Source: an uncultured Actinomycetes bacterium
GTDB taxonomy: Bacteria > Actinomycetota > Actinomycetes > Actinomycetales > Microbacteriaceae
Direction: 5' to 3'
Length of the DNA: 54,608 nt
Assembly (NCBI GenBank): GCA_903920435.1
Contig: CAIXMB010000122.1
Location: 1-54,608, forward strand
Shown here: piece after piece, positions 18,026 to 34,500 of the stretch
How the letters are laid out: every line of letters begins with the position of its first letter
Numbering within the stretch: position 1 is the stretch's first letter
Notes under the pieces: generated by a model
What the model was told of the DNA's origin: nothing
The model's database searches: none
What the model saw: the letters and a program-made list of their open reading frames with translations, nothing else
Translations under genes and position numbers: made by a program

Positions 18026-19522
18026 ATGACTCACACGATCGACCGCGGATATCCGTGGCAGATCGCAGGCACCCCCGGCCTGCAGCTCCACCGCGCACGC
18101 TCGCGCCCCACCGAGTGGGCGCTCACCTTCCTGCGCGTCGTCACGGTGACCGACATCGTCATGGTGATCGTCGCGACGGCCAGCACGCACCTGCTGTGGT
18201 TCGGCTTCCAGCACGTTCTCGTCGCCGCGCCCGTCGAGCTCGGCATCGACTACCTGTTCTTCTCGGGCTTCCTCGTGATCGCGTGGATGATCGCCCTGAG
18301 CGCCTCGGGATCGCGCGACACGCGCATCCTCGGCACCGACTCGACCGAGTACCGCCGCGTCGTCAACTCCACCGCGCTCCTGTTCGGCGCCATCGGAGTG
18401 GTCGCGGCCATGACCCAGACCGACATCGCGCGCGGCTACCTCATCACGGCGTTCCCCTTCGGCCTAGCCCTGCTCCTGCTCTCGCGCTGGACCCTGCGCC
18501 GCTGGCTGCACGTGCGCCGCCGCCGCGGGGAGTTCTCATTCCGCGTCGTCATCATCGGCAACACCGAGGGCGTGCGCGAGCTCGCCGCCTCCCTCGCGGT
18601 GCGGCCGGATGCGGGCTACCGAGTCGTCGGCGCCCTGGTGACCGACGGCGCGACCGGCACGCTCGACGGCGTTCCCGTCACCCGCGTCACGCGCGACACG
18701 ATCTTCGCCCGGCTCGCCGAGTCGCACCAGGACACCGTGATCGTCGTCGGCTCCGACGAGCTCGACGCCGACGCGATCAACGAGCTCAGCTGGCGCCTTG
18801 ACGCCGGCCACCAACTCGTCGTCGCCCCCCAGCTCGTGGGCGTCGCGGGGTCGCGCATCCACACGCGCCCCGTCGCGGGCCTGCCCCTCATCCACGTCGA
18901 GACGCCGTCGTACGACGGCCCGAAGCGCTTCGCGAAGCGGGCGTTCGACATCGTCGGCTCCGCTCTGCTGCTCGTTGCACTCGCGCCGCTCTTCCTCGTG
19001 ACCGCCGTGCTCATCAAGCTCGCCTCGCCCGGCCCCGTCTTCTACCGCCAGGAGCGCATCGGCCTGAGTGGCGAGCCGTTCCACATCCTCAAGTTCCGCA
19101 GCATGGTCATGAACGCCGACGCGCACCTGGCCGCGCTCCTCGCCGAGCAGGGCAACGGCGACACCCCGCTGTTCAAGGTCAAGCACGATCCCCGCATCAC
19201 CCCCATCGGCAGGTTCATCCGCCGCTACTCGATCGACGAGCTGCCCCAGCTCTTCAACGTGTTCATCGGGCACATGAGCCTCGTCGGGCCGCGTCCGCAG
19301 GTGGACGGCGAGGTGCGGCTGTACGACTCCAAGGCGAGCCGCCGCCTCGCGGTCAAGCCGGGCATGAGCGGGCTCTGGCAGGTGAGTGGGCGTTCGAACC
19401 TGTCGTGGGAGGACAGCATCCGGCTCGATCTGTACTACGTCGAGAACTGGTCGGTCACGAGCGATCTGGTGATCCTCCTCCGCACGGCCAGGGCCGTGTT
19501 CGCGCACGATGGGGCGTACTGA
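18026..19522 (+). CDS. Polyprenyl-phosphate sugar-1-phosphate transferase (EPS priming enzyme)
   Basis: 498 residues. Four to five N-terminal spans, a nucleotide-binding CoA-like middle region (RVVIIGNTEGVRELAASL), another span at about 310-335, and a C-terminal catalytic domain with the WbaP/WcaJ signatures KRAFDIVGSALLL, SPGPVFYRQERIG, FKVKHDPRITPIGRFIRRYSIDELPQL and SLVGPRPQ, then KPGMSGLWQVSGRS. It moves a sugar-1-phosphate from a nucleotide sugar to undecaprenyl phosphate and starts the EPS repeat unit. First gene of the five-gene operon to 24544. Start codon ATG has a weak GAGGA 11 bases upstream, after the leader hairpin. Confidence 0.95.
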   Translation: MTHTIDRGYPWQIAGTPGLQLHRARSRPTEWALTFLRVVTVTDIVMVIVATASTHLLWFGFQHVLVAAPVELGIDYLFFSGFLVIAWMIALSASGSRDTRILGTDSTEYRRVVNSTALLFGAIGVVAAMTQTDIARGYLITAFPFGLALLLLSRWTLRRWLHVRRRRGEFSFRVVIIGNTEGVRELAASLAVRPDAGYRVVGALVTDGATGTLDGVPVTRVTRDTIFARLAESHQDTVIVVGSDELDADAINELSWRLDAGHQLVVAPQLVGVAGSRIHTRPVAGLPLIHVETPSYDGPKRFAKRAFDIVGSALLLVALAPLFLVTAVLIKLASPGPVFYRQERIGLSGEPFHILKFRSMVMNADAHLAALLAEQGNGDTPLFKVKHDPRITPIGRFIRRYSIDELPQLFNVFIGHMSLVGPRPQVDGEVRLYDSKASRRLAVKPGMSGLWQVSGRSNLSWEDSIRLDLYYVENWSVTSDLVILLRTARAVFAHDGAY

Positions 19523-19525
19523 CCG

Positions 19526-21616
19526 ATGACCTCTGTCGACGAGCGCCCGACCTACGCCCCGCACCGCGCGGGGCGTCTCGTCGTGCTGCACGTCGTCGAG
19601 AGCTGGGGTGCCGGAGTGCGAGCCGCGGTGCTCCGCTACGCCGCCGCGACGCCCGAGTACGAGCACCACGTGCTGCGCGGAACCGGCCGCAGCGAGTTCG
19701 CCTCCGATGGTGAGCACGTGTTCGCCAGCGTGCGCGACCTGCCCGCGGGAGCGCTCGCCGCGCACCGCGCCATCCGTGACACCGCCCGCGAGTTGTGTCC
19801 CGCGGTCGTGCACGCGCACTCGTCGTACGCGGGCGCGTTCGTGCGCGCGACCCTGCGCGACCGGGCCGCCCAGCGCATCGTCTACAGCCCGCACTGCTTC
19901 GCCTTCGAGCGCCGCGACCTCTCGCCCGCCGTGCGCCTGGCGGTGCGCGCCCTCGAGTTCATGCTTGCCGGCAACACCGACACGATCGCGGCGTGCTCCC
20001 GCGCCGAGCTCGCGACCGCGTCGCGCTTCGGCGTGCGCGCCGCGTACGTGCCGAACGTTCCGAGCACCACAAGTCCGGCGGCGGTGACCCCGACCGAGGG
20101 GGTCGTCGCCGTCGGACGCATCGGTGCGCAGAAGGCGCCCGGCTTCTTCCGCGACGTGGTGGCACTGCTGCGCACGACCGCGACGGCGACCTGGGTCGGC
20201 GACGGCGACGACACGGATGCTCGCGCCGACCTCGAGCGCAGTGGCATCCGGGTCACGGGCTGGCTGCCCTCCGCCGCCGCCCAGTTCACGGTGGCGGGCG
20301 CGGCGGCCTACGTGCACACGGCGGACTGGGAGGGCTTCCCGATCGCGATCCTCGAGGCGATCGAGCTGGGCGTGCCCGTGGTGGCGCGCGAGGTGCCGAC
20401 CCTGAAGGGCGCGATCGCCACCCCCGGGCTCACGACGCCCGCGCAGGTCGCCGCGGCCGTCGACGAACTGATCGTGGGCGGACCCGTGGCCCGGGAGCGC
20501 AACCTCTCGGCCTGGCGCGAGCTGCTCGCGGGCAACACCGCCGAGCACCAGGCGGCGGCGCTGCGGAGCCTCTACGAGGGCACCGCACCGCTCACGATCA
20601 ACGGCAAGTGGCTCGGCTCCCGGCAGAGCGGCATGCAGCGCTACGCGGGCGAGGTTGCCCGGCGCATCCTCGAGCTCGAGCCCAGCGCGCGTGTCATCGC
20701 CCCCGCGAACGCGGTGCTGCCGTCGTGGCTGCCGGCGTCGCGGGTGACGCGTGCGCGCCTGAGCGGTGTGCCGTTCGAGCAGCTGGAGCTGCCCTGGCGC
20801 AGCCGTGGCACCATGCTCCTCAACATGGCGGGCGCCGCCCCGCTTGCGACGCGCGAGCAGCTGGTCGTCATGCACGACGCCACCCCCGCGCGCTTCCCGC
20901 AGACCTTCTCCCGGCGGTTCGTCGCGTGGTACTCGGTGATGAACCGCGTGCTGTCGCGCCGCGCACGGCACCTCGCCACGGTGTCGGAGTTCAGCCGCCG
21001 CGAGCTCGCCGACGTGCTCGGTGTCGACCGGTTCACCGTGGCCGGGAACGGCCACGAGCACCTGCTCGGTGATCGAGCGGAGCCGAGATCCGGGTCTCGG
21101 CTCCGCTCGACCACCGGTGCGGAGTACGTGCTGTGCGTGGGCAACCTCACCCCCAACAAGAACCTCGTGCCCGTGGTGACCGCGCTCGCGGCAGCGGGCA
21201 TCCGGGTCGTCGTGGTGGGAGCGGGTGGTGCCTCGAACGTGTACGCGCAGCAGGCCGGGCTCGATATCGCGGGCGTCGAGCTCGCGGGCCGCGTGAGCGA
21301 CGAGGAGCTCGCCGGGCTGCTAGCCGGGGCCAAGGCACTCGTGTTCCCCTCGTTGTACGAGGGGTTCGGCCTGCCCATCGTCGAGGCCCAGGCCCTCGGC
21401 TGCCCCGTGATCGCCTCGGATGCGGCGTCCATCCCCGAAGTCGCCGGCGACGGGGCACTGTACTTCGACGCCCGCAGACCCGAGCAGGCCGTCGCCCTCG
21501 TCGAGGGCCTCGACGAGCCGGTGCGCCGCGACCTCGTCGCCCGCGGCTACGCCAACGTCGCGCGTCACACGTGGGACGCGACTGCCCAGACCCTGCTCGG
21601 GGTGGTGTCGCGATGA
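19526..21616 (+). CDS. Double GT4 glycosyltransferase
   Basis: 696 residues: two complete GT-B glycosyltransferase units in one chain. Unit 1 (about 1-350) has VVAVGRIGAQKAPGFF and HTADWEGFPIAILEAIELG, with the EX7E-type acidic motif. Unit 2 (about 360-696) has LCVGNLTPNKNLVPV and LVFPSLYEGFGLPIVEAQALG (E-G-F-G-L-P-x-x-E). Each should add one sugar to the lipid-linked EPS unit on the cytosolic face. Unit 2 carries 16 residues (DRAEPRSGSRLRST region) encoded by a perfect palindromic repeat at 21068-21115, in frame between two core segments. The stop overlaps the next ATG (ATGA). Which sugars are used cannot be read. Confidence 0.9.
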   Translation: MTSVDERPTYAPHRAGRLVVLHVVESWGAGVRAAVLRYAAATPEYEHHVLRGTGRSEFASDGEHVFASVRDLPAGALAAHRAIRDTARELCPAVVHAHSSYAGAFVRATLRDRAAQRIVYSPHCFAFERRDLSPAVRLAVRALEFMLAGNTDTIAACSRAELATASRFGVRAAYVPNVPSTTSPAAVTPTEGVVAVGRIGAQKAPGFFRDVVALLRTTATATWVGDGDDTDARADLERSGIRVTGWLPSAAAQFTVAGAAAYVHTADWEGFPIAILEAIELGVPVVAREVPTLKGAIATPGLTTPAQVAAAVDELIVGGPVARERNLSAWRELLAGNTAEHQAAALRSLYEGTAPLTINGKWLGSRQSGMQRYAGEVARRILELEPSARVIAPANAVLPSWLPASRVTRARLSGVPFEQLELPWRSRGTMLLNMAGAAPLATREQLVVMHDATPARFPQTFSRRFVAWYSVMNRVLSRRARHLATVSEFSRRELADVLGVDRFTVAGNGHEHLLGDRAEPRSGSRLRSTTGAEYVLCVGNLTPNKNLVPVVTALAAAGIRVVVVGAGGASNVYAQQAGLDIAGVELAGRVSDEELAGLLAGAKALVFPSLYEGFGLPIVEAQALGCPVIASDAASIPEVAGDGALYFDARRPEQAVALVEGLDEPVRRDLVARGYANVARHTWDATAQTLLGVVSR
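21068..21115. repeat. 48-bp perfect palindrome inserted in frame in the double GT gene
   Basis: Arms TCGAGCGGAGCCGAGA (21073-21088) and TCTCGGCTCCGCTCGA (21095-21110) pair perfectly over 16 bp around a 6-base loop; after one mismatch, GGTG (21068-21071) and CACC (21112-21115) extend the stem. The 48 bases are 16 codons, so the frame is kept. GGTCGAGCGGAGCCGAGACC-like palindromes are, from memory, a common interspersed repeat of high-GC actinobacteria. Confidence 0.85.
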
Positions 21617-22776
21617 GGATCGCGCAGTTCGTCGGCTCCCTCATCGAGCCGCTGGGCGGGGCGGAGCAGTACTGCCTCGAGCTCGCGCGCTGGCAGCGCG
21701 ACCAGGGGCACGACGTCACCATTGTCACGGGGTGGGTCTCCCCCGGGATCGAGAAGTCCCTTGCGGCCGAGGGCCTGCCGGTGCGCGTCGTGCGCAGCCG
21801 GCGGCCATACCCGCCCGACCGCAAGGGATCCAAGCCCGCCGCCGTGCTCTTCCACGGCCTCGACCTGCTCGGATCGCTGCGGCTCGCGCCACCCGTGCGC
21901 CGCGTGCTCGCCGAGCCGTGGGATGTCGTGCACGTGCACAGGTTCGCCGGGTTCGGCGCAGCGGTGCTGCGCTCCGGCCGGCCGACGGTCATGACGGTGC
22001 ACGACTACGGGCTCGTCGACACGACGACGACCCTGCTGCGCCACGGTCGCGAGGTGGAGACTGCTCCCGCCGTGCAGCGCCTGCGCACGCGCGTGACCAA
22101 CCGTGCGGTGCGCGACACCCGGCTCATCTTCCCCACCGAGCGCCTGCGCGAGAAGCACGTGCAGTGGGGGCTGTCACTGCCCGAGACGACGGACGTGATC
22201 CCGCACGGCTGGCGCGGCGCCCCACCGGTGGCCGAGCCTGCCGAGACCGGCCCCGCCGTCTTCCTCTTCCTCGGCAAGCTGATCAGCGCGAAGGGCGTCG
22301 AGCTGCTGCTCGAGGCGTGGGGCGACGGGCTGCCGGGGGCGGAGCTCTGGGTCGCCGGCGCCGGGCCGCTCGAGTCCGCCGTGCAGTCCGCGCCGAACGT
22401 TCGCGCGCTCGGGTGGCTGGACGACACCGGGCGACGGGCGGCGCTCGCCGCGGCATCCGTGCTCGTGCTGCCGTCGACGTGGCCCGAGAACTTCCCGCTC
22501 GCGGCGGCGGAGGGCGTGCTCGCCGGGCTGCCGATCGTCTCGACCACGATCGCCGCGCCGCCCGTGCTGCACGACGGGGTCAACGGCGTGCTCGCCGCGC
22601 CGGATGCCGCGTCCCTGCGCTCGGCGATGCAGCAGCTGCTCGACCCCGCCACGCGCGCCCGCTACGCGGCCGGGTCGCGCGAGCTCGCCCTCGACCTCGA
22701 CTTCGACACGCACGGCCGCCGGATCGAGGAGCTGTACGGTTCAGTGGTGGGCAGCTCGATCGGCGCAGGCGCATGA
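21613..22776 (+). CDS. GT4 glycosyltransferase
   Basis: 387 residues. N-terminal Rossmann half starts MRIAQFVGSLIEPLGGAEQYCLELARW with the donor/acceptor loop PLGGAEQ; the C-terminal half holds VFLFLGKLISAKGVELLLEAW and LVLPSTWPENFPLAAAEGVLAGLP, where the acidic pair is E-N-F-P-L-A-A-A-E. A retaining cytosolic transferase for the EPS unit. It overlaps both neighbours by four bases (ATGA), giving strict coupling with the double GT and the acyltransferase. Confidence 0.9.
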   Translation: MRIAQFVGSLIEPLGGAEQYCLELARWQRDQGHDVTIVTGWVSPGIEKSLAAEGLPVRVVRSRRPYPPDRKGSKPAAVLFHGLDLLGSLRLAPPVRRVLAEPWDVVHVHRFAGFGAAVLRSGRPTVMTVHDYGLVDTTTTLLRHGREVETAPAVQRLRTRVTNRAVRDTRLIFPTERLREKHVQWGLSLPETTDVIPHGWRGAPPVAEPAETGPAVFLFLGKLISAKGVELLLEAWGDGLPGAELWVAGAGPLESAVQSAPNVRALGWLDDTGRRAALAAASVLVLPSTWPENFPLAAAEGVLAGLPIVSTTIAAPPVLHDGVNGVLAAPDAASLRSAMQQLLDPATRARYAAGSRELALDLDFDTHGRRIEELYGSVVGSSIGAGA

Positions 22777-23213: not shown

Positions 23214-24544
23214 GCGTAACCGTCCTCGGCATCGTGACCCTCCTCGCGATCGTCGGGGTGTGGCTGGTGCGCCGCGAATGGACCCAGTTCGTCGTGGGCG
23301 CCACGGTCGCGTTCCCGCAGACCGCGGGCATCGTCGTCGCGGGCAACGGATTCCCGCTCTTCTACCTCGCGATCGTGCTGCTGCTCGTGCTCGCCTTCCC
23401 GCGCATGCTGCTCGGGCTGTCGAGGTTCGGGCGCGCACCGGCCGGCAGGCAGGAGCGCCTCGTGCCCGACCTCATCGGCGTCGCGCTCGTGGCGTGGGCA
23501 GCAGTGATCTCGGTGGCCGGTCCCCGCATCTTCGAGGGCATGCGCGTGTTCGCACCCGAGCTGGGCGTCGATGCGCAGGTCGTGAACATGGCGACGCTGC
23601 ATCCGTCGATCGGCAATCTCGCCCAGGTCGGCTATGTGGGAATGGGGGTGCTGTTCCTGCTGCTGGCGGGCCGACTCTTCCCCGTGGATGCCCGGCTCAT
23701 CGGCTCGGGGCTGTGGGTCGCCATCGTGCTCGCTGCCGTGCGGATTGTCGCCGAGCCCTGGTGGCCGCACGCGCTGCTGCAGAACATGCCGGGGTTCAAC
23801 TACGCCACCCCGGAGCGCCTCTCCGGCACGTTCTACGAGCCCTCCGTGCTCGGTCTGTACCTGACCGCGGCGGCGGGGTACTTCGGCGCGCGGCTGCTGT
23901 GGTCGGGGGCGGCGGGGCGCGTGGCATCCGTGCTGGCCCTCGCGCTCGTGGGCATCGACTTCGTGAAGAACGGGTCGGGCACCGCGCTGCTCGGCCTCGC
24001 GATCCTGTTCGGGCTCGCGGGGGTCGTCGCGCTGGTGCGCCAACTGCGGTCGGGCCGGTTCGGCGTGCGCCCGTTGGCGATCATCGCCGCCGTGGTCGTG
24101 GTCGGGGGCGCGCTCTCGCAGATCCCGATCATCCTGCAGTTCACGGTCGGCTCGGCAGCCTCGAAGGCCGACTCAGACAGCTTCATCGCCCGCACGGCGT
24201 CGAACGTGCGGTCGGGGCAGATCTTCCTCGAGAGCACGGGACTCGGCATCGGGCTGGGCGGCAACCGCCCCTCGAGCCTTTTCATGCTCGTGCTCAGCTG
24301 CCTGGGCGTGATCGGTATCGCGCTCGTCGGGGCGCTCGTGTTCCTCGCGCTGCGCCGCGCGCTGAGGTTCCGCGCGATCGAGCCGGGCGGGTGGGCGCTC
24401 GCGGGTGTGCTGGTTGCGGCGATCGTGGCCGTGCCCGACCTCTCCACCCCCGCGATCTGGATCGGGCTGGCGGCGTGCCTCTACCCGGTCGTCGCGCCCG
24501 TGCGATCGGTCACCCGCACCGAGATCGCCACTTCGGCGACCTGA
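23210..24544 (+). CDS. Wzy-like EPS polymerase / O-antigen ligase family protein
   Basis: 444 residues from the GTG that overlaps the acyltransferase stop (GTGA). Ten or more membrane spans, a large outer loop (about 190-215), and the motif LSGTFYEPSVLGLY, which recurs in Wzy/Wzc-dependent polymerases. A second outer stretch, ARTASNVRSGQIFLESTGLGIGLGGNRPSS, fits the RPSS region of that family. It should join lipid-linked repeat units outside the membrane. Its last residues (EIATSAT) are encoded by the first of two palindromic repeats. Confidence 0.87.
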   Translation: MSVTVLGIVTLLAIVGVWLVRREWTQFVVGATVAFPQTAGIVVAGNGFPLFYLAIVLLLVLAFPRMLLGLSRFGRAPAGRQERLVPDLIGVALVAWAAVISVAGPRIFEGMRVFAPELGVDAQVVNMATLHPSIGNLAQVGYVGMGVLFLLLAGRLFPVDARLIGSGLWVAIVLAAVRIVAEPWWPHALLQNMPGFNYATPERLSGTFYEPSVLGLYLTAAAGYFGARLLWSGAAGRVASVLALALVGIDFVKNGSGTALLGLAILFGLAGVVALVRQLRSGRFGVRPLAIIAAVVVVGGALSQIPIILQFTVGSAASKADSDSFIARTASNVRSGQIFLESTGLGIGLGGNRPSSLFMLVLSCLGVIGIALVGALVFLALRRALRFRAIEPGGWALAGVLVAAIVAVPDLSTPAIWIGLAACLYPVVAPVRSVTRTEIATSAT

Positions 24545-24580
24545 TCCCGCCCCGAGGTCGCCATTCCGGCGATCTCGGGG
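24521..24580. repeat. Tandem palindromic repeats at the wzy end; second copy a likely terminator
   Basis: Copy 1 is 24521-24546 (GAGATCGCC-acttc-GGCGACCT) and runs over the stop codon of the polymerase gene; copy 2 is 24550-24580 (CCCCGAGGTCGCC-attcc-GGCGATCTCGGGG), a 13-bp stem with one mismatch. The two copies share the core GAGRTCGCCAYTYCGGCGAYCT. Copy 2 lies 10 bases before the stop of the convergent GT2 gene and can act as a two-way terminator. Confidence 0.75.
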
Positions 24581-24590
24581 AGATGGCGCG

Positions 24591-25478
24591 CTACAGGGAG
24601 CGCCAGCCCAGCTCCTGCCGGGCGCGGCGGCGGAGGTAGGCCCGCTCGACGACGCCGAGACCGGAGATGGTGTCGAGGAAGCGCTCGATGAACGGCTCCA
24701 CGAGCGCGCGCCCGGCGGGGGACAGCGGGCCGTCGCGCGTGAAGGCGAGCTCGCGGAACCAGGGCGTCTCACGGGTTCCCCACACGAGGTGGGTGAGCTC
24801 TTGGTACGAGCGCTCGAGCACCGGGTCGTAGGCCAGGCTCTCGCGCCAGCCGACCGCGGCGGTCACCTGGGTCTCGCTCTTGCGGATGAGCACGGTCGGC
24901 CGCGCGAGCCGCACCATCGTCGCCCCGTTGGCGGCGGCGCGCAGCCAGAGGTCGAAGTCCTCGGCGATCGCTCCGGCGCGGTATCCGCCCGCCGCCCGCA
25001 GCGCGTCCGCACGCCCGAGCGACGTCGAGTGCGGGTACGGGCAGTCGAGGAGAAGCGCGAGCCTCGCGGCATCCCTGCCGAAGCGGATCGGCGGCACGGG
25101 CCGGCGGATCGTGCCGCGCCCGATGCGCTGGTAGGTGGAGAAGACGATGTCGGTTCCGCGCCGGATCTCGGCGAGTTCCGCCCGGAACCGGCCCGGCAGG
25201 CACACGTCGTCGGAGTCCATGCGCGCGATGAACTCGCCGGATGCCCGTGCCAGGAGCCGCTCGGCCGCGAGCGCGACCCCGAGGTTCTCGCTGACGCTGT
25301 CCACGACCACGCGTGAATCGCCGGTGGACGACGCGATCTCGAGCGTCGAGTCGCTGGACGCGTCGTTGAGCACGATCAGTTCGGCGTCCTTCGGCATCGC
25401 CCGGAGCGTCGAGATGAGCGCCTCCCCGATGGTGCGCTCGGCGTTGCGGGCGGGCATCAGGACGCTCAGGCGGGGCAC
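24591..25478 (-). CDS. GT2 family glycosyltransferase
   Basis: 295 residues from GTG 25478; an upstream frame to 25538 would add 20 non-conserved residues. GT-A fold: LSVLMPARNAERTIGEALIS, the ELIVLNDASSDST nucleotide loop, RMDSDDVCLPGRF (DxD metal motif), then AIAEDFDLWLRAA (catalytic ED). It uses a nucleotide sugar to extend an acceptor. It is the only EPS gene read leftward, divergent from the aminoacyl module; the 218 bases between them hold the acpS operon control region. It could add a branch sugar. GAGAGTAAGGGC before the GTG provides a fair ribosome site. Confidence 0.9.
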   Translation of the reverse strand: MPRLSVLMPARNAERTIGEALISTLRAMPKDAELIVLNDASSDSTLEIASSTGDSRVVVDSVSENLGVALAAERLLARASGEFIARMDSDDVCLPGRFRAELAEIRRGTDIVFSTYQRIGRGTIRRPVPPIRFGRDAARLALLLDCPYPHSTSLGRADALRAAGGYRAGAIAEDFDLWLRAAANGATMVRLARPTVLIRKSETQVTAAVGWRESLAYDPVLERSYQELTHLVWGTRETPWFRELAFTRDGPLSPAGRALVEPFIERFLDTISGLGVVERAYLRRRARQELGWRSL

Positions 25479-25513
25479 GCCCTTACTCTCGCACACCGCC
25501 GCGCGCGGCTGCC

Positions 25514-25595
25514 TTAACCCGCCCCTTAACCCGAACACCTATGCCCCCTTTCGGGTGTCCCGCAGTCGAGGGACACCGGACGTACCCCATAACGT
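25514..25595 (+). promoter_or_regulatory. EPS operon 2 control region: tandem TTAACCC heptamers and promoter
   Basis: TTAACCC at 25514-25520 and 25526-25532 (12-base period). Then CCCCC (25544-25548) facing GGG, a GGTGTCCC/GGGACACC inverted repeat (about 25554-25577), GTACCCC, and TAACGT at 25590-25595, 64 bases from the start of the second heptamer. TAACGTGATC matches the operon 1 promoter exactly. The leader (25602-25696) has TTTACCCGATTCCT and then AACCCGAAGGAACCC before the ATG. Confidence 0.6.
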
Positions 25596-25696
25596 GATCT
25601 GAAGTGAGCCACCCACTCACCGATTTACCCGATTCCTCGCCGGCGTGCGGCCACCCACCGCGCACCCCCCCACCGGCGAACCCGAAGGAACCCACA

Positions 25697-26122
25697 ATGC
25701 ACAGCACCCGAGCTGGCACGACGATGGCGCACCCCGGTGTGCTCATCGGCTGCGACATCCACCCGGTCTTCAACGTCGTCGAGAGCATCGACATCTTCGG
25801 CGAGCGCTACCTCGCGCGGGTCTTCACGCCCGCCGAGCGCGCGGCCTGCGGCGAGGCGCCCGAACGCCTCGCCGCGCGCTACGCCGCCAAGGAGTCAGTG
25901 CTCAAGCTGCTGAAGGTGCCGGCGGAGGTCGCGGTTCCCTGGACGGATATCGAGGTGGGCGCCGACCCGAACGGCGCCCCCTCGGTCTCCCTCCGCGGCG
26001 AGGCCGCGCGCATCGCCGCCGAACTCGGCGTCGGCACGATCGAGCTCACGCTCAGCCACGACGGCGGCATGGCGATGGCCGTGGCCGCAGCCGTCATCGG
26101 TGCCGAGGCCCTCGCGGCATGA
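25697..26122 (+). CDS. AcpS-type 4'-phosphopantetheinyl transferase
   Basis: 141 residues from ATG 25697, chosen for the GAAGGA seven bases upstream; a longer frame from 25604 would lack a site and add a Pro-rich stretch. AcpS signatures: IGCDIHPV with metal-binding Asp20, RVFTPAERAAC, and RYAAKESVLKLL with Glu66, then LSHDGGMAMAVA at the end. It should transfer phosphopantetheine from CoA to a carrier-protein serine. It overlaps the adjacent carrier-protein gene (ATGA), so it is probably a dedicated enzyme for that carrier, not the housekeeping AcpS. First gene of the module that runs to the flippase. Confidence 0.85.
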   Translation: MHSTRAGTTMAHPGVLIGCDIHPVFNVVESIDIFGERYLARVFTPAERAACGEAPERLAARYAAKESVLKLLKVPAEVAVPWTDIEVGADPNGAPSVSLRGEAARIAAELGVGTIELTLSHDGGMAMAVAAAVIGAEALAA

Positions 26123-26370
26123 GCATGATCGACACCGTCGTGCGGGTGCTCGACACCCACGGCAAACTGACCACCCCCGCGGGCTCGCTCGCCCCCGACG
26201 CCGACCTCTACGCGGCAGGCATGACCTCGCACGCGAGCGTCAACGTCATGCTCGCCGTCGAGGACGCCTTCGACATCGAGTTCCCCGACGAGCTCCTCAC
26301 CAAGTCAACGTTCTGCTCCATCGGCGCGATCTGCAGCGCCGTCGAAGGTCTTCTGGAGGCCGCAGCATGA
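26119..26370 (+). CDS. Small aminoacyl/acyl carrier protein
   Basis: 83 residues. Four-helix carrier fold with the phosphopantetheine serine at Ser37 in G-M-T-S-H-A-S (normal ACPs have D-S-L), then NVMLAVEDAFDIEFPDELL, the standard helix 2-3 segment. The TSHASVNVML signature is like the carriers found beside amino acid:[carrier protein] ligases in proteobacteria, and unlike fatty-acid ACP. It overlaps the PPTase gene by four bases and the flavoprotein gene by four (ATGA both). It should hold an aminoacyl thioester for the next enzymes. Confidence 0.88.
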   Translation: MSMIDTVVRVLDTHGKLTTPAGSLAPDADLYAAGMTSHASVNVMLAVEDAFDIEFPDELLTKSTFCSIGAICSAVEGLLEAAA

Positions 26371-27542
26371 GAATGCCCACCACGATCGTCACGACGCCGG
26401 ATGCCCGTCCGCTCGCCGAGCGAGTCGCCCACGTCGCCGACATCGCGTCCCGCTACGCGGGCGAGGTAGACGCCGCCGCGCGCTTCCCCGCCGAGGCGGT
26501 CGACGCCATGCGCGCCACCGGACTGCTCGGCGCGAGCCTCCCCGTCGCCCTCGGCGGCGAGGGCCTCACGCTCACCGAGCTCGGCGACATCTCCGCGAAG
26601 CTCGGTGCCGCGTGCTCCTCCACCGGCATGGTGTTCGCCATGCACCACAGCCAGGTGCTCAGCCTCTCCCGCCACCTCGGCGGCTCTGCGTCGCTCGCCA
26701 TCCTCGCGGGCCGCATCGCGAGCGAGCAGCTGCTCATCGCGTCGGCGACCACCGAGCTCGGCATCGGCGGCGACGTGCGCACGAGCTTCTGCTTCGTCGA
26801 CCTCGACGGCGACACCGTGCGGCTCGTCAAGAATGCGCCGGTCATCTCCTACGGCTCCGAGGCCGACCTCGTGCTCGTCACCGCCCGCCGCAACGCGGAC
26901 AGCGCGCCGAGCGACCAGGTGCTCGTGGTGTGCGACGCGGCGAACCTCGCGCTCGAGGCGACCGGCGGCTGGGACACCCTGGGCCTGCGCGGCACGGCGA
27001 GCATGGGCTACAAGCTCAACGCGGTAGTTCCGGCAGACCGCGTGATCCCCGAGCCCTACGACGTCATCTCGGCAGAGTCGATGCTTCCGGTGTGCCACGT
27101 GCTGTGGGCATCCGTGTGGCTCGGCATGGCGCGCGCCCTCGTCGACACCAGCCGCCAGTACGTGCGCGCGGCCGCCCGCCGCACGATCGGCAGCGTGCCG
27201 CCCGGTGCGACGAAGCTCGTCGATCTCATCGCGGAACTCGAGCGCTTCGAGACCCTCGTGGCCGACCTCACCCGCCGCACGGAGTCGATCTGGGACGACC
27301 GCGCCGCGTTCGGTGCGATCGGCTACCAGGTGAGCATCAACAACCTCAAGGTGACGGCCTCGGAGCTCGTGGCGCAGGTGGCGCTCGCCGCCCTCGCGAT
27401 CACGGGCATCTCGGGCTACCGCAACGACGGCAAGCACAGCGTCGCGCGCATCTTCCGCGACGCGCAGGGCGCCGCCCTCATGGTCCACAACGATCGCATC
27501 ATCGCCAACACGGCCAGGCTCATCCTGGTCCAGAAGGGTTAG
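26367..27542 (+). CDS. Acyl-CoA dehydrogenase-like flavoprotein of the aminoacyl-carrier module
   Basis: 391 residues, normal for the family. N-terminal helical domain, middle beta domain (EQLLIASATTELGIGGDVRTSF; GWDTLGLRGTASMGYKLNAVVP), then the four-helix C-terminal domain ending GISGYRNDGKHSVARIFRDAQGA. The usual catalytic Glu near the C-terminus (E-G-T) is replaced by V-H-N-D at 373-376. FAD-dependent oxidation of a carrier-bound substrate is likely, by analogy with prolyl-carrier oxidases such as PltE/RedW. On glycyl-carrier it could only oxidise the C-N bond; on alanyl-carrier it could give a dehydro product. Overlaps the carrier gene by four bases. Confidence 0.85.
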   Translation: MRMPTTIVTTPDARPLAERVAHVADIASRYAGEVDAAARFPAEAVDAMRATGLLGASLPVALGGEGLTLTELGDISAKLGAACSSTGMVFAMHHSQVLSLSRHLGGSASLAILAGRIASEQLLIASATTELGIGGDVRTSFCFVDLDGDTVRLVKNAPVISYGSEADLVLVTARRNADSAPSDQVLVVCDAANLALEATGGWDTLGLRGTASMGYKLNAVVPADRVIPEPYDVISAESMLPVCHVLWASVWLGMARALVDTSRQYVRAAARRTIGSVPPGATKLVDLIAELERFETLVADLTRRTESIWDDRAAFGAIGYQVSINNLKVTASELVAQVALAALAITGISGYRNDGKHSVARIFRDAQGAALMVHNDRIIANTARLILVQKG

Positions 27543-27546
27543 TGAC

Positions 27547-28482
27547 ATGACCGACGTCCTCGCTCCCACCGCGCTCGACCTCGCCCGCCTGGAGTTCCGC
27601 GACGAACTGCTGGCCTCCGGCCTGCTCGTCGGCACCTCGGTGCCAGGCATCTACGGCCGCTCCGGCGACTTCGAGCGCGTGATCGCGGGCCTCGACCGCA
27701 TCCTGGGCGAGGCGTTCGCCGCGCTCGACGCCACGGTCCTGCGGTTCCCGCCCGTGTACCCGCGCGCGGACTTCGAGCGCACCGACTACATCGCGTCGTT
27801 CCCCGACCTGAGCGGCATCGTGTCGAGCTTCGAGGATGGCGACCGCGAGCACCGCGAGCTGCTGGCCGCCCGCGAGGAGGGCAGGGCCTACGAGGGTTGG
27901 CTGAAGCCCGCCGACGTCGTGCTCACCAACGCGATCTGCCACCCGCTGTACGCGACGCTCGAGGGCACGCTGCCCTCCGGCGGCGGCACGTACGACCTCT
28001 CCGGCTACGGCTTCCGCCACGAGCCGTCGTTCGACCCCATGCGCCTGCAGTCGTTCCGGATGCGCGAGTTCGTGTTCGTCGGCACCCCCGACGCCGCGCA
28101 GCTCTACCGCGACACCTGGCTCGACACGTCGGTGGCGCTGCTCGCCTCCCTCGGCCTGGCCGTGCAGGCCGTGCCGGCCAACGACCCGTTCTTCGGCCGC
28201 GCGGGCAAGATGCTCGTGAGCGCCCAGCTGCGCGAGAACCTCAAGGTCGAGATCATCGTGCCGCTCTACGGCGACCTGCACGAGGGAACAGCCATCGCGT
28301 CGGCGAACTGCCAGCGCGACCACCTCACCCACGCCTTCGACATCCGCACCACCGACGGCGAGGTCGCGCACGGCGCGTGCGTCGCTTTCGGCATGGAGCG
28401 CACGGTCCTCGCGCTCGTGCGCACGCACGGCACCGACCTCGAGGCCTGGCCCGTGGACGTGCGAGCCCTCCTCGGGCTGTGA
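27547..28482 (+). CDS. Amino acid:[carrier protein] ligase (class II synthetase-like)
   Basis: 311 residues. It belongs to the family of class II aminoacyl-tRNA synthetase homologs without a tRNA-binding domain, described from Bradyrhizobium as loading Gly or Ala on a phosphopantetheinyl carrier. Visible: FPPVYPRADFERTDYIASFP, motif 2 as FRHEPSFDPMR and SFRMREFVFVG, and motif 3 as ACVAFGMERTVLAL. Candidate zinc ligands are Cys131 (TNAICHPLY), Glu174 (RMRE) and Cys278 (HGACVAF), the Cys-Glu-Cys pattern known for the family; THAFDIRTTDG is also typical. ATP-dependent activation of an amino acid and transfer to Ser37-bound pantetheine is expected. Starts four bases after the flavoprotein gene. 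Confidence 0.9.
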   Translation: MTDVLAPTALDLARLEFRDELLASGLLVGTSVPGIYGRSGDFERVIAGLDRILGEAFAALDATVLRFPPVYPRADFERTDYIASFPDLSGIVSSFEDGDREHRELLAAREEGRAYEGWLKPADVVLTNAICHPLYATLEGTLPSGGGTYDLSGYGFRHEPSFDPMRLQSFRMREFVFVGTPDAAQLYRDTWLDTSVALLASLGLAVQAVPANDPFFGRAGKMLVSAQLRENLKVEIIVPLYGDLHEGTAIASANCQRDHLTHAFDIRTTDGEVAHGACVAFGMERTVLALVRTHGTDLEAWPVDVRALLGL

Positions 28483-28489
28483 TGCCGCG

Positions 28490-30169
28490 ATGATGATCGA
28501 TACCTGGTTCGGCGATCCCGAGTCGCCGAACCTCGGATTCCTCCACCTCCCCGACGACCGCAGGGCGGTCGGCGGCGTGGTGATCTGCGCGCCCCTCGGC
28601 TACGACCAGGTGCTCGGCTACCGCGCGCTGCGCTTCGTCGGCCAGGAGCTCGCCGCGCGGGGCGTTGCCGCGCTGCGCTTCGACTACGTGGGCGAGGGCG
28701 ACGCGGCCGGCCAGTCGGGCTCGGCCCACTCGCCCGAGCTGTGGATGTCGAGCATCGCGCGCGCCGCGGCCTACCTGCGTGAGGCCGGCGTGGAGAACAT
28801 CGCGCTGCTGAGCCTCGGCGCGGGAGCTCTGATCGCCAACGAGGCGGCCCTCACCGTCGACGCGACCGCGCTCGCGCTCTGGGATCCCGAGCTCTCGGGC
28901 CGCCGGTTCCTGCGCCGTCAGCGTTCGCTGTTCGAGCTCACCGTGGGCGACCACGGCGGGCCGAACGACCCCAACGCGCTGCTCTCGCTCACGCTGCACC
29001 CGGAGGCAGCGGCCTGGCTGCGCGCCCGCGAGGTCACCGCCGACGCCCTGCCGGTAGGCATCGACACCCTGATCGTCGGCCGTCGCGCCAATGACGAGAG
29101 CCCGGCCACCCTCGCGCTCAGGAGCACGCTCCCGGCGCGGGCCGAGTACCGCTCCGTCACCGGCCAGGAGGAGCTGCTCGAGGCGCCGAGCTCGCTCGCG
29201 GTGCTTCCGGAGGAGACGATCGCAGGCATGGCGGACTGGCTGCGCGAGCGGTTCCCCGCGGCATCCGTGCCCCTCACGCCCACGGTCACCGACCGCGCGG
29301 TCGTGGGCGAGGCGCCCGACGGCACGCCCGTGGTCGAGCGGCTGCTGCGGGTGGGGCCCGACGAGCTCTTCGTCATTGAGACCTCGCGCGAGGGCGACAC
29401 CGACTCCGGTGTCGTCGTGCTGCAGCCCGGCGCCGCGGAGCACCGCGTCGGTCCCGGCCGATTCCAGGTACTGGCTGCCCGCGAGCTCGCCGAACGCGGC
29501 TACCGCACCATCAGGTTCGACCGGCGCGTCACGGGCGACACGACCGAGGTCCGCCCCGGCGAACCGAGCCTGCTCTTCACCGAGGAGTGGGTGGATGACA
29601 CCGACCAGCTCGTCGCCGGGCTCGGCCTCACCGCCGACGTGGCGCACGCCGGCCTGTGCGCCGGCGGCTGGGTCGCCGCCCGCATGGCGGAGCGACGTGC
29701 CGCGCGACTGACCGTGCTGTTCAGCCCCAACTACTTCAAGACGGCGGCGCTGCGCGCGGGCGAGTACTCGGTGCTCACCCAGGAGGAGCGCAACGGCACC
29801 CGCCGGTTCAGCGGTCTCAAGCGGCGCGTGCGCGGCATCCTGCCCGGCTGGGCGTGGCCCGTGCTGAGCAAGCTGCAGCTGTTCCACGACCCGGCGGTGC
29901 TCCTCGAGGCATCGACGCGGCGCGAGTCCAGCACCGTTGCGCTTCTGCTCACCCCGCACGATCGCGAGAACTTCGAGGCCCACCGCGGGCCGGATGCGGT
30001 AGCCCGCCTCCAGGGCAAGGGCGCAGACATCCGGGTCACGAACTACCCGTTCGGCGACCACTCGCTTTTCGGTGAGGATGTGCGAGCGGCCATGCTCGGC
30101 GACCTCCTCGCCCTCGTCGAGGAGACGCTGCCCCGCGCCGCCGCGGTCACCGCCGGGTCGAGAGCATGA
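28490..30169 (+). CDS. Tandem alpha/beta-hydrolase protein with Cys nucleophile
   Basis: 559 residues: two alpha/beta-hydrolase-like halves. Half 1 (about 1-260: ICAPLGYDQVLGYRAL, RFDYVGEGDAAG) resembles the hydrolases linked to exosortase/EPS loci; its nucleophile elbow is S-L-G-A-G, with Gly110 where Ser should be, so it is probably inactive. Half 2 (about 290-550) has G-L-C-A-G with Cys390 at the nucleophile site and a late His524 (FGDHSLFG), a thiol-type triad. Such Cys enzymes often transfer acyl groups rather than hydrolyse them. Next to the aminoacyl-carrier module it could move the aminoacyl group to a sugar or release it. It begins 7 bases after the ligase gene and overlaps the flippase gene. 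Confidence 0.78.
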   Translation: MMIDTWFGDPESPNLGFLHLPDDRRAVGGVVICAPLGYDQVLGYRALRFVGQELAARGVAALRFDYVGEGDAAGQSGSAHSPELWMSSIARAAAYLREAGVENIALLSLGAGALIANEAALTVDATALALWDPELSGRRFLRRQRSLFELTVGDHGGPNDPNALLSLTLHPEAAAWLRAREVTADALPVGIDTLIVGRRANDESPATLALRSTLPARAEYRSVTGQEELLEAPSSLAVLPEETIAGMADWLRERFPAASVPLTPTVTDRAVVGEAPDGTPVVERLLRVGPDELFVIETSREGDTDSGVVVLQPGAAEHRVGPGRFQVLAARELAERGYRTIRFDRRVTGDTTEVRPGEPSLLFTEEWVDDTDQLVAGLGLTADVAHAGLCAGGWVAARMAERRAARLTVLFSPNYFKTAALRAGEYSVLTQEERNGTRRFSGLKRRVRGILPGWAWPVLSKLQLFHDPAVLLEASTRRESSTVALLLTPHDRENFEAHRGPDAVARLQGKGADIRVTNYPFGDHSLFGEDVRAAMLGDLLALVEETLPRAAAVTAGSRA

Positions 30170-31428
30170 GGGCCAAGGCGACGACCACACGGCTCGGGCT
30201 CTTCGGTGCCTCGGTCGTGCTCAACGGCGTCATCAGCCTCATCACGATCCCCATCGTCATCGCCGTCGCGGGCGCCGACCCGTGGGCGTCGATGGCCACC
30301 GGGCAGTCGATCGGCAACTCGATCGGCGTGCTCGTGCTCTTCGGCTGGGGCCTGACCGGCCCCGCGACGATCGCCATGGCACCCGTCGACAAGCGGCCGG
30401 GGCTCTTCCTCGACTCGCTGTTCTCGCGCATGGCGCTCCTGCTGCCCCTGCTGCTCATCCAGGCGGTGGTCACGATGGCGATCGTGCCCCACGCCAAGTT
30501 CGTCGCGTTCGTCGCCGGCCTCGCGATGACCCTCGCGGGCGTCTCGGCCAACTGGTTCTTCACGGGGGAGGGCCGCCCGGGCCGCTTCCTCCTGCTCGAC
30601 ACGGTGCCGCGCGTCCTCGGCACCGTCGCGGGGCTCCTCCTCGTGGTCTTCACCGATGAGCTGCTGTACTTCGCGCTCGCCCAGCTCGCGGGGTCGCTGC
30701 TGGCGCTCGCGGTCTCGTGCTACGTGATCTTCCGCGGCCAGCACCTCGACTTCCGCGAGGCCGCGCGCTGGCGCAACATCGTCGGGCGGCTCGGCGAGCA
30801 GCGCCACGGCATCGTCGCGACGGGGCTCTACGCGGGTCTCACCCCCGCCGTCCTCGGCATCGTCGCTGTGACCGCGCCGCCGGCGCTCCCGCTCTTCGTG
30901 CTCGCCGACCGCCTCTCCAAGTTCGTCGGCATGGCGTCGTCGCCCCTCATCCAGGTGTTCCAGGGCTGGGTGCCTGCGGCGCGCGGCGGGGAGCTGGCTC
31001 GGCGCATCACGCTCTCCGCCCGCATCACGCTGGCGCTCTCGATCCTCGCCGGTGCTGCGTACGCCGCGCTGCTGCCGTTGTTCAGTGAGCTGCTCACGCA
31101 CGGCCAGGTGGCGGTCGACACGTCGTCTGCCATCGCGTTCGGCATCGTGGCATCCTCGTGGGTGCTCTCGCCGTACCTGACCAACGTCGGGCTCATGGCC
31201 GTCGGCCGTGTGCGCGTCATCGCCGTCAGCGCCGCGGTCGGCGTACCGCTGACCCTCGTGCTCCTCGCGATCGCCGAGTTCGCGGGGCTGCGCGAGTTCG
31301 CGCCGTGGGCGCTCGTCATCGGCAACACCGTCGGGATGATCTGGCTCGGCATCGCCCTGCGCCGGGCGATGAACCACCCGGCCGAGCCCGCCCTCGTACC
31401 CCAGCCCATCCTGGAGACGGTGCCTTAA
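30166..31428 (+). CDS. Wzx-like oligosaccharide flippase
   Basis: 420 residues, about 12 membrane spans, MOP/MATE-like exporter: KATTTRLGLFGASVVLNGVISLITIPI at the start and GEGRPGRFLLLDTVPRVLGT in the middle. It should flip undecaprenyl-linked repeat units from the cytosolic to the outer face. The ATG overlaps the hydrolase stop (ATGA), placing it as the last gene of the aminoacyl operon; export of a decorated unit is the natural reading. Its TAA is part of the first TTAACCC heptamer of the Wzz control region. Confidence 0.88.
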   Translation: MRAKATTTRLGLFGASVVLNGVISLITIPIVIAVAGADPWASMATGQSIGNSIGVLVLFGWGLTGPATIAMAPVDKRPGLFLDSLFSRMALLLPLLLIQAVVTMAIVPHAKFVAFVAGLAMTLAGVSANWFFTGEGRPGRFLLLDTVPRVLGTVAGLLLVVFTDELLYFALAQLAGSLLALAVSCYVIFRGQHLDFREAARWRNIVGRLGEQRHGIVATGLYAGLTPAVLGIVAVTAPPALPLFVLADRLSKFVGMASSPLIQVFQGWVPAARGGELARRITLSARITLALSILAGAAYAALLPLFSELLTHGQVAVDTSSAIAFGIVASSWVLSPYLTNVGLMAVGRVRVIAVSAAVGVPLTLVLLAIAEFAGLREFAPWALVIGNTVGMIWLGIALRRAMNHPAEPALVPQPILETVP

Positions 31429-31506
31429 CCCCGCGATTAACCCCTCAACCGCCCCACGCCCTCAACCCCGGTGCGCTTGCCGGGGTACGCCCGTTGTCCG
31501 TAGTTT
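31425..31506 (+). promoter_or_regulatory. EPS operon 3 control region: tandem TTAACCC heptamers and promoter
   Basis: TTAACCC at 31425-31431 and 31437-31443 (12-base period), the first containing the flippase stop codon. ACCCCGG (31465-31471) and CCGGGGT (31480-31486) form an inverted repeat; TTGCCG (31477-31482), 18 bases, then TAGTTT (31501-31506) is the likely promoter. The -10 starts 64 bases after the second heptamer starts, the same as at the acpS operon. The leader has CCCAGG/CCTGGG arms (31543-31566) around TTTACCCGCTT, then AACCCGAAAACCC. Confidence 0.55.
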
Positions 31507-31594
31507 GGATGACGAGGCCACCTGTACCCGCATCGCGGCCTCCCCAGGCTTTACCCGCTTCCTGGGAACCCGAAAACCCGGAGCCATCCCCCCA

Positions 31595-34500
31595 ATGGAT
31601 ATCCACGAATACTTCGGCGTGCTGCGCCGCGGCTGGGCACTCGTCGTGCTCGGGCTGCTCGTCGGCATCGTCGGTGGAGCCGCCGCGAGCGCCATCCAGC
31701 CTCGCGTCTATGCGGCGACCTCTCGTGAGATCCTGACCAACAGCGAGGCGACCGGCGACCTCACCCAGTCGCTCCAGGCGTCGAACCTGGCGGAGGGGCG
31801 CATCGCCTCGTATGTGCTCGTCGCGACGAGCGGCCTCGTGCTCCAGCCCGTCATCGACGAGCTCAAGCTCGACATGACCGTGCAGGAGCTGGCGAGCCAC
31901 GTCTCCGTCGTCGCGCCGCAGAACACCCTCATCGTCGAGATCACGGCCACGGCCGCGACCCCCGAGCTCGCCAAGTCGATTGCCAACACCGTCTCCTCGG
32001 TGTTCAGCGACGTCATCGAGAACCAGATCGAGAACGCGACGACCCCCACGGTCGGCGCCGACGACGGTACGGATGCCGCGGCCCCCGTCGCCACGACGCC
32101 CGTGCGCATCGTCAACATCGAGCACGCCTCGCTCCCGACGGCGCCCACGCTCTCCAACGCGCCCCTTCTCCTCGGCGTGGGAGCGATCCTCGGCCTCGCC
32201 ATCGGCCTCATCGGTGCCTCGCTGCGGGAGTCGCTCGACCGCCGCATCCGCGGCCGGAAAGACGTCGCGGCGGTCACCGAGCGGCCCGTGCTCGGCCAGA
32301 TCCGGCCCGATCGCGGAGTCAAGGCGAGCCCCATCGTCATGCACACGAGCTCGCAGAGCGCCATCGCCGAGTCGTTCCGCGGCCTGCGGGCGAGCGTCGA
32401 CCACGTGCGCTCGCGCGACGTGGTGAGCACCTTCGTCATCACCGCGATGGCGCCCCGGCAGGGGGCATCCCTCGTCGCCGCGAACCTCGCGCTCGCGATC
32501 GCCGACACCGCGACCACGGTCGTCGTCGTCGACGCCAACCTGCAGTCACCGAACCAGGCCGAGATCTTCGACGTGGATGCTGGCCCCGGCCTCACCGACC
32601 TGCTCACGACCAAGATCAGCCTCGACGAGGTGGTGGCCGCCGGCCCGAGCGACAACATCTGGGTGGTGCCGATCGGCTCGCGCCGAGCCAAGTCCGCAGA
32701 CCTCCTCGCGACCCCGCGCATGCGCGCCCTCATCGTCGAGCTCGAGGCCCGCTTCGACGTCGTCATCATCGACACGCCCTCCATCAGCACGGCGACGGAT
32801 GCCACGGTGCTCGGCTCCCACGGAGCGGCGACGCTCCTCGTGGTCGCCGAGGGCACCGCGACCCGCCCCGCCCTCGCCGAGGCGCTCACCGCTCTCGCGG
32901 CCGGGGGAAGCATCCCAGCCGGGATCGTGCTCAACCAGATTCCGCGCAGCACCCGCTCGCTGCGCCCCGAGGCCCCGGCCCCCGCGCGCACATCCCGCCG
33001 CGTGACGGGTGCCGCGGTCAAGGCCCCCGCGGTGCGCGCCGCCGAGCCCGTGGTCGAGGCGCCCGCCGTGGCCGAGCCGGTCGCCGTGGCCGAGCCGGTC
33101 GCTGAGGTTCTCGAAGCGCCGGTAGTCGAGCTCGCCGAGACCCCCGCCCCCGCACTGCCCGCCCCGATCACGGAGGTGCCCGTCGCCCCCGTCGTCGCCG
33201 TTCCCGCTCCCGTGGAGGAGAAGGTGCTCGAGATCACCCCGCCCGCAGTCGAATCCACGTCGGGACGCGCAGCGGCCCGCGCCGCGCGAGTCGCAGCGAA
33301 GGCCGCGGCGCGCGCCGCGGCATCCCGTCCGCAGCAGCCCGTCTCGCGATTCGCGCCGAAGCCCGCGCCGGCGCCCAACGCCTTCGACATCCTCTCGTCC
33401 GACCGCCGAGTCGCCCCCGCGCCGATTATCGACTCGGTGCCGGTGCTCGAGCCCGTCGACGAGAACTCGAACCCCGTCATCGACGTTCCCCGTGGCGACA
33501 CGGGCGAGCGCGTGACCCTGCTTGCCCCCCAGCCCGGCGACCCGACCCCCGAGGAGCTCGCCGAGATCGTCGCCAATCAGTTCAAGGATGATGTCGTGTA
33601 CGAGATCCCCGTCGAGGCGTTCGGCAGTTTCCACCAGATCGACGCCGACGCGTTCGCCGCCATCGACAACGAGCCGACGATTCTGCCGCCGTTCAAGCAC
33701 ACCGAGCCGGAGGTCGCGCCCGGCACCCTCGTCATCGACCCGGTCGACCCGCTCAGCACCGGATCGTTCTCCGTCGCGCAGCCCGCGCCGCTCACCGAGG
33801 AGAACGCCGCGTTCGTCATCGACCTCCTGGCGGACGAGCCGGTCTACGACATGCCGCGCGTCGAGGACTGGGCGGGGGAGCCGGCCCCGGCACCGTTCGA
33901 GTTCGAGGACTCCGACCCCGCCGCCCACGGCCTCACCGAGCCCGAGTTCGATGCATCCGTCTACGCCCTCGACGACGTCATCGAGATCAAGACCGGCGAG
34001 CCCGAGACCCATTTCCCGGTCGCCGCCGAGGAGCCTGTCGTGCACGAGCCGGTGGCGGAGGCCACGGATCCCCGCGCCTTCGTCGCCCCGTCGTCGTGGC
34101 CCGCGCCCCGCCTCATCTCCGACTGGCCGGTCGCCCCGGAGCTGCGCGACCAGCAGGCAGAGGCCGCTGCCGCCGTCGAGGCCGAGCCGGTCGCCGAGCA
34201 GGCCGCCGAGCCCGAGTTCGACGATGCGCCCGTGTACGAGATCCCGGTGATCGCCCCCGTCGCCGTCGAGGAACCGGTCGTGGAGCCTGTCGCGGAGGAG
34301 CCCGCCGAGGAGCCCGTCGCGGAGCAGTCCACCGCCGACGAGCCGGTCGACGAGGAGACGCAGCTCGGCCCGACCCTGGCCCGCGTGACCGCCCACCCGA
34401 CCCGCGAGCGCCTCGCGCGCGAGAGCTACCTCCTCAAGTCGCGCGAGCTCGAGCGTGCCGCCCAGGAGCGCCTGCGCTACGAGCAGGAGCGGCTCGAGGC

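Follow-up and report, generated by a model that had tools for sequence, protein, structure and literature searches.

An amino acid:[carrier protein] ligase module in an actinobacterial exopolysaccharide cluster and its possible role in aminoacyl decoration

The six-gene module and its ligase

The stretch of DNA analysed here, called the window, comprises bases 1-54608 of contig C122, from an assembly of 3.16 Mb in 204 contigs. Within an exopolysaccharide (EPS) gene cluster of the Wzx/Wzy type, which spans positions 18026-34609, it harbors a module of six genes around an amino acid:[carrier protein] ligase. This module is real and conserved, and its setting suggests that the amino acid ends up decorating a cell-surface sugar polymer. 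All six genes lie on the + strand, three of their junctions overlap by 4 bases, and the remaining two gaps measure 4 and 7 bases. The original prediction had given the same coordinates and the same tight packing inside the EPS cluster (overlaps or at most 7 bases), both of which are correct. The module consists of:

25697..26122, + strand: 4'-phosphopantetheinyl transferase (PPTase), AcpS-like; Pfam ACPS, 49.5 bits (cut-off 25)
26119..26370, + strand: aminoacyl carrier protein with attachment site Ser37; NF005480, 96.4 bits (cut-off 72)
26367..27542, + strand: flavoprotein with acyl-CoA dehydrogenase fold, possibly a monooxygenase; Pfam Acyl-CoA_dh_1, 43.5 bits, and AF2 model
27547..28482, + strand: amino acid:[carrier protein] ligase; NF005479, 382.4 bits (cut-off 357), aligns to 4h2w/3mey
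28490..30169, + strand: tandem alpha/beta-hydrolase with Cys390, proposed aminoacyltransferase; domain models, predicted structure and alignments
30166..31428, + strand: Wzx-like flippase; hydropathy, relatives and co-occurrence in the genus

For the carrier, Pfam PP-binding is matched at 28.4 bits (cut-off 20.8) and Ser37 lies within the conserved motif, which together with the NF005480 score bears out the earlier assignment of this serine. The sole Pfam match of the ligase, tRNA-synt_2b, stays below cut-off (23.7 bits, cut-off 29.3), with no further Pfam domain at E <= 1. Its alignment to the solved Bradyrhizobium ligase 1 (4h2w, 3mey) covers residues 22-311 of 311 (290 residues); here, C131, E174 and C278 as well as the motif-3 residue R285 coincide with the same residues of the solved ligase, and all four are invariant across the 7 aligned ligase sequences. 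The protein thus has the zinc ligands Cys-Glu-Cys and the class II motif-3 Arg of the family and no tRNA-binding domain, and the ligase identity, the Cys131-Glu174-Cys278 pattern and the class II motif 3 of the original prediction all stand. An artefact or a frame error was dropped as an explanation, given the scores of the curated models and a gene order common to the sister loci described below.

For Bradyrhizobium and Agrobacterium, amino acid:[carrier protein] ligases were reportedly described in papers of 2010 and 2013, and the characterised ligases of this type are said to load Gly or Ala on their carrier. Carrier loading by these ligases was reported in PNAS in 2010, as described in PMC2922099.

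Matches to the ligase family are rare: they were found in 6 of 60 relatives and in 10 of 396 genomes across the phylum, of which only 4 exceed the cut-off. In the ligase tree, the neighbors of the window protein are records of Leifsonia, Rhodoglobus, Salinibacterium and Schumannella (Microbacteriaceae). Two other records in this tree stand at unexpected places for their names. The ligase of L055, named Kitasatospora arboriphila, is almost the same as the Williamsia muralis enzyme (end branch 0.005), perhaps from a contaminated or mislabelled assembly. A contig named Acidobacteriaceae (L094) also has the system, with a ligase placed among the Mycobacteriales, either by transfer or by mis-binning.

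Linkage to polysaccharide genes

The module is surrounded by the following genes of the EPS cluster:

18026..19522, + strand: WbaP-type priming sugar-phosphate transferase; Pfam Bac_transf, 229 bits
19526..21616, + strand: double GT4 glycosyltransferase; Pfam Glyco_trans_1_4 in 2 stretches
21613..22776, + strand: GT4 glycosyltransferase; Pfam Glyco_trans_1_4, 81.8 bits
22773..23213, + strand: hexapeptide-repeat acyltransferase; Pfam Hexapep, 37.5 bits
23210..24544 (start approximate), + strand: Wzy-like polymerase, assigned by its place in the cluster and by 12 hydrophobic segments, counted with a start at 23102; no Pfam match
24591..25538, - strand: GT2 glycosyltransferase; Pfam Glycos_transf_2, 77.7 bits
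31505..34609, + strand: Wzz-like chain-length protein with AAA domain; its two Pfam matches, Wzz at 22.5 bits (cut-off 25.5) and AAA_31 at 17.5 bits (cut-off 27), fall short of the thresholds

The cluster is adjoined on the opposite strand (34628-37147, - strand) by a gene for an 839-residue protein with a LuxR-type domain, a possible regulator.

The EPS setting of the module, as originally predicted, is supported, and it recurs. In all six sister loci (L031-L036), wbaP, GT4, wzy, GT2, PPTase, carrier, flavoprotein, ligase, hydrolase and flippase genes occur together; one of these records is an isolate, not marked as a metagenome-assembled genome, and one stretch (L036) ends without a wzz match. 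For the flippase, the picture is mixed. A simple scan detected 9 hydrophobic segments, compared with about 12 in Wzx, and 5 of the 10 members of its alignment match Polysacc_synt, which is in line with the earlier assignment, but the window protein itself has no Pfam match and only a chance-level NCBIfam match. Across 27 genomes of the genus, the cognate flippase (at least 62% identity) is present in 6/6 genomes with the ligase and in 0/21 without; 9 of these 21 have a relative at 28-32% identity.

Further loci were surveyed as the best 80 of 136 confirmed. Genes were called as stop-to-stop open reading frames with iterated profiles, and components were counted by profile match within each stretch; by best label instead, L048 would be without flavoprotein and L057 without carrier. 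The 80 loci contain a carrier in 79, a flavoprotein in 74, the hydrolase in 55, a PPTase in 54, and DUF1839 and a GH2 glycosidase in 40 each. At least one polysaccharide marker of the seed set is present in 58.

In addition, of 74 further ligase-bearing genomes, 34 (23/40 and 11/34) have a wbaP-type priming glycosyltransferase no more than 25 kb from the ligase, where 2.0 were expected from gene counts and genome sizes. This linkage comprises 8/8 Williamsia, 10/14 Mycobacteriaceae, 12/38 Rhodococcus, 1/3 Gordonia, 0/7 Curtobacterium and 3/4 others. A Tsukamurella plasmid stretch likewise has carrier and ligase among wbaP, glycosyltransferase and flippase genes, with the hydrolase present and no flavoprotein found. 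The direction of the linkage between ligase and polysaccharide genes is clear, and the survey of such linkage proposed with the original prediction is positive, as is the flippase co-occurrence in the genus.

Several observations weigh against a role in polysaccharide decoration. No wbaP gene lies within 25 kb in 40 of the 74 genomes, including all seven Curtobacterium. The genomes are also related, 38 of the 74 being Rhodococcus, and this kinship inflates the linkage statistic, while contig ends may conceal links. Moreover, in the Curtobacterium locus L088 the scanned neighbors place the module upstream of genes for the E1 subunit of pyruvate dehydrogenase, a PucR-type regulator and, from fatty-acid synthesis, a FabD-like and a FabH-like protein, and this stretch has no polysaccharide marker of the seed set.

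A rival reading is a module that makes a small diffusible metabolite and shares the EPS neighborhood only as both vary between strains. In line with this, 22 of the 80 stretches are without a polysaccharide marker of the seed set, a Priestia megaterium plasmid (L115) has PPTase, carrier, flavoprotein and ligase beside genes for comX, an alanine permease and an alanine racemase, and Streptomyces accounts for 22 of the 91 plasmid records in which a ligase relative occurs. The wbaP linkage far above expectation, the co-occurrence with the flippase and the cluster common to all six sister loci argue in the opposite direction, and a metabolite is therefore regarded as quite improbable. The Priestia plasmid further shows a two-component pair with comX, and its nearby alanine genes hint at alanine as the substrate there.

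Flavoprotein, tandem hydrolase and DUF1839

The adjacency of flavoprotein and ligase exceeds chance, the flavoprotein gene being directly 5' of the ligase in 73 of the 74 surveyed loci that have it. A fold search with its AlphaFold model (pLDDT, the predicted local confidence score, 88.5) returned TdsC, DszC, KijD3 and one flavin monooxygenase at ranks 1-16, with dehydrogenases from rank 17 onward at similar TM-scores. By alignment to 7p98, Val373 and Cys243 occupy the positions which we take to be those of the catalytic Glu in MCAD-type and IVD-type acyl-CoA dehydrogenases. In 81 covered rows, the residues displayed at 372-375 and 242-244 include no Glu, and His244 is kept in all 81; a further flavoprotein alignment has 30 rows, the window and 29 of 36. 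A classical acyl-CoA dehydrogenase was dropped as a candidate, there being no Glu at either place. The flavoprotein may be a monooxygenase, and oxygenation is preferred to classical dehydrogenation. On the other side, the best NCBIfam match is FadE16, which at 104.5 bits falls well short of the cut-off of 600, and the top structure match by sequence is a short-chain acyl-CoA dehydrogenase, followed by DnmZ. The flavoprotein is also missing from 6 of the 80 loci by profile match; an oxidation of the aminoacyl group is nevertheless plausible.

The protein called a Cys-hydrolase in the original prediction does have a Cys nucleophile (Cys390), but this description is incomplete. It consists of two alpha/beta-hydrolase domains (predicted model, pLDDT 90.1), of which the first is without the usual nucleophile (Gly110) and only the second has the cysteine. 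Among 61 aligned rows, of which 60 cover each site, the domain-2 nucleophile position is Cys in 60/60 and His524 is kept in 60/60, and the domain-1 position is Arg in 45, Ala in 9 and Gly in 6. All of the 32 hydrolases scanned match both TIGR03101 (exosortase-A-associated hydrolase 2) and TIGR03100 (hydrolase 1) at E <= 1e-5. A hydrolase alignment comprises 32 rows, the window and 31 of 38 non-redundant rows. In the window protein, domain 1 matches TIGR03101 (73.2 of 202.75 bits) and domain 2 TIGR03100 (52.2 of 168.45 bits), far below the cut-offs, which makes it a relative and not a member. Neither searches for exosortase loci with carrier and hydrolases nor passages in the PEP-CTERM paper PMC1569441 yielded information on hydrolases 1 and 2.

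Where present in the survey, the hydrolase is directly 3' of the ligase in 44 of 55 loci. Of 55 plasmid records containing the hydrolase, at least 35 have the ligase too (matched by eye, with 60 of 91 ligase records listed). An EPS locus of Shinella zoogloeoides contains a relative of the hydrolase together with flippase, glycosyltransferase and carrier genes and an AMP-forming ligase of another family, whose best model is the exosortase-associated TIGR03098 (409 bits, cut-off 592); no NF005479-type ligase was found in this 21.7 kb stretch. The hydrolase can therefore accompany a carrier and a different ligase in an EPS locus. In this relative, domain 2 keeps the Cys, whereas domain 1 has a Ser motif. 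In Rhizobium tumorigenes, the hydrolase locus has a flippase gene of the lipopolysaccharide type and a glycosyltransferase, with no carrier or ligase listed in an incomplete annotation.

A second candidate for the transfer step is known from relatives of the system. The family of Atu2574, named as the transferase in 2010, is identified with DUF1839 (PF08893) from the gene order in relatives. In PMC10318531, DUF1839 is placed in a papain-like fold and glycan processing at the cell wall is suggested. DUF1839 was detected in 31 of 46 ligase-bearing genomes, with one match each. Among the 46, PF08893 was not found in the window genome (G000), in G004, G008, G019 and G023, in five Mycobacteriaceae and in five Curtobacterium genomes; as transferase in the window, DUF1839 was accordingly dropped. 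Of the five sister genomes, four are without it, and in the fifth (G013) it adjoins a second, separate ligase copy. This genome carries both forms of the system on contigs C8 and C10 (L023, L024): one is the window-type EPS module, the other a locus with carrier, ligase, DUF1839 and GH2 genes, where the search detected no flavoprotein.

The two forms are also reflected in the 80 loci, of which 39 have only the hydrolase, 24 only DUF1839, 16 both and one neither. In the ligase tree, the Microbacteriaceae rows of the hydrolase form (7 window-type, 7 Curtobacterium and L057) make up one well-supported group, all hydrolase-only, with a long-branch warning for L057 with Curtobacterium; the second ligase of G013 (L023) is placed elsewhere. 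In five proteobacterial plasmid loci the order is carrier, flavoprotein, ligase, DUF1839, GH2. In Azospirillum, Mycetohabitans and Rhizobium rhizoryzae the stretch also contains the hydrolase, which is not listed in the Rhizobium leguminosarum stretch shown; in the Shinella WSC3-e record it is about 22 kb away, with polysaccharide genes upstream of the ligase operon. As an observation in its own right, DUF1839 and the GH2 gene occur together in 40/40 loci that have either (L031-L110).

We propose the tandem Cys hydrolase as a new candidate aminoacyltransferase, because it goes with another carrier/ligase pair in an EPS locus, has an invariant Cys, and no other transferase is kept in the window-type loci. 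Three points weigh against this assignment. Among solved folds, single-domain lipases and esterases come nearest, a Cys nucleophile is also compatible with a thioesterase, and 24 of the 80 loci have DUF1839 and GH2 with no hydrolase in the stretch, so that the hydrolase cannot be the sole transferase of such systems.

Another enzyme might instead perform the transfer, DUF1839 where it is present and, in the window, the hexapeptide-repeat protein or an unrecognised one, leaving the hydrolase as an editing thioesterase that frees stalled carriers. Alpha/beta-hydrolases adjoining carrier proteins are often thioesterases, and the nearest folds just named are those of hydrolases. For a different transferase speak the naming of DUF1839 in 2010 (PMC2922099) and a prediction in PMC6519341, where a PglD-type enzyme moves a carrier-bound acyl group to an amino sugar of the Flavobacterium O-antigen. 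However, the window genome lacks DUF1839, as do 10 of 40 further genomes, and the hexapeptide gene, dropped as a transferase, has no match (E 1e-3) in sister locus L035 of Salinibacterium sp. G-O1 or in the 74 loci L037-L110. The hydrolase itself occurs in 6/6 window-type loci, with a domain-2 Cys that is invariant in the covered rows. On balance, we consider transfer by another enzyme, with an editing hydrolase, rather unlikely.

Proposed pathway and known systems

Taken together, we lean slightly towards the view that the module builds an aminoacyl group on its dedicated carrier, with probable oxidation, and that this group is attached to the repeat unit of the EPS while still in the cytoplasm, ahead of export. 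Judging from the families, the PPTase would arm the carrier at Ser37, and the ligase, with its active site kept, would activate a small amino acid, with precedent for Gly or Ala, and load it on the carrier. The flavoprotein could then oxidise the group on the carrier, with oxygenation more likely than classical dehydrogenation; some relatives without flavoprotein would omit this step. The hydrolase would take the group onto Cys390 and pass it to a sugar of the repeat unit while this is linked to a nucleotide or a lipid, as an ester on a hydroxyl or an amide on an amino sugar, and the dedicated flippase would finally export the decorated unit for polymerisation. A transfer inside the cell, before flipping, is suggested because carrier, ligase and hydrolase show no membrane segments in a simple scan, which gave one scan window each in PPTase and flavoprotein. 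Gene order, conservation, co-occurrence and the active-site residues are read from the sequences, whereas the reactions are proposed.

In a variant compatible with this pathway, which the note in proof of PMC2922099 predicts, a dedicated amino sugar would offer its free amino group for an amide bond; a deacetylated hexosamine could supply the amine too. However, a DegT-type sugar aminotransferase (E <= 1e-20) is missing in 25 of 46 ligase-bearing genomes (8/15 without and 17/31 with DUF1839). Therefore, a DegT-made amino sugar is not a general requirement and was dropped as the general acceptor. The window genome and its sisters do have DegT-type genes, located on other contigs or far away; those of the window genome lie on contigs other than that of the window. 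The restriction to an amide on such a sugar appears rather unlikely.

The role of the ligases in a pathway had been described as left open in the original prediction, which is not borne out in that form in view of the note in proof of 2010. There (PMC2922099), the ligase system was predicted to aminoacylate a cell-surface sugar amine, with the Atu2574 family as transferase and a probable monooxygenation. Since sugar aminoacylation at the cell surface was already predicted, the claim to novelty must be reduced. What is new is the window form without DUF1839 that keeps the two-domain hydrolase, a better-founded EPS link, and a new candidate transferase. PMC9437257 was among the prior art considered. 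Among the papers listed in literature searches, none gave an actinobacterial or EPS example of the ligase, and no paper settling its pathway was found in the open-licence literature.

Ligases with solved structures are here joined to a whole Wzx/Wzy-type cluster in Actinobacteria. This points to a conserved Cys alpha/beta-hydrolase as the likely transferase, beside or replacing DUF1839, and to a carrier-based charging of surface polymers without Dlt proteins. A broader scheme can be drawn from this, although we hold it to be possible but doubtful. In EPS loci of different phyla, interchangeable charging ligases, either class II synthetase-like or AMP-forming, might feed a common two-domain Cys hydrolase that (amino)acylates the repeat unit in the cytoplasm before flipping. 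The outcome would be Dlt-like but reached by an unrelated intracellular route, here with an oxidised amino acid.

The ligases of Bradyrhizobium and Agrobacterium belong to the same curated family and share the zinc and motif-3 residues with the window ligase, and proteobacterial relatives likewise adjoin genes for a carrier and a protein of acyl-CoA dehydrogenase fold. In contrast, the window system is actinobacterial, lies inside a Wzx/Wzy-type EPS cluster and has its own PPTase, with no DUF1839 in the genome and no GH2 match in the six sister loci. With the pathway of PMC2922099 it has in common the ligase, the carrier, the redox enzyme and the idea of a cell-surface sugar, whereas the DUF1839 transferase of that pathway is missing in the window and the tandem Cys hydrolase is the candidate instead. 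In comparison to the exosortase-A-associated hydrolases 1 and 2, the window hydrolase has both domains fused in one chain, and the ligase beside it is class II synthetase-like.

The Dlt system, in which a ligase and a carrier supply D-alanine for teichoic acids, offers a further comparison. The 36 proteins scanned from the window show no match to a DltA-type AMP ligase or to DltB, for which no search of the genome beyond them was made. As in the Dlt system, a ligase and a carrier would supply an aminoacyl group for a surface polymer, but the window ligase is of an unrelated family, and its transfer is proposed to take place inside the cell, before polymerisation.

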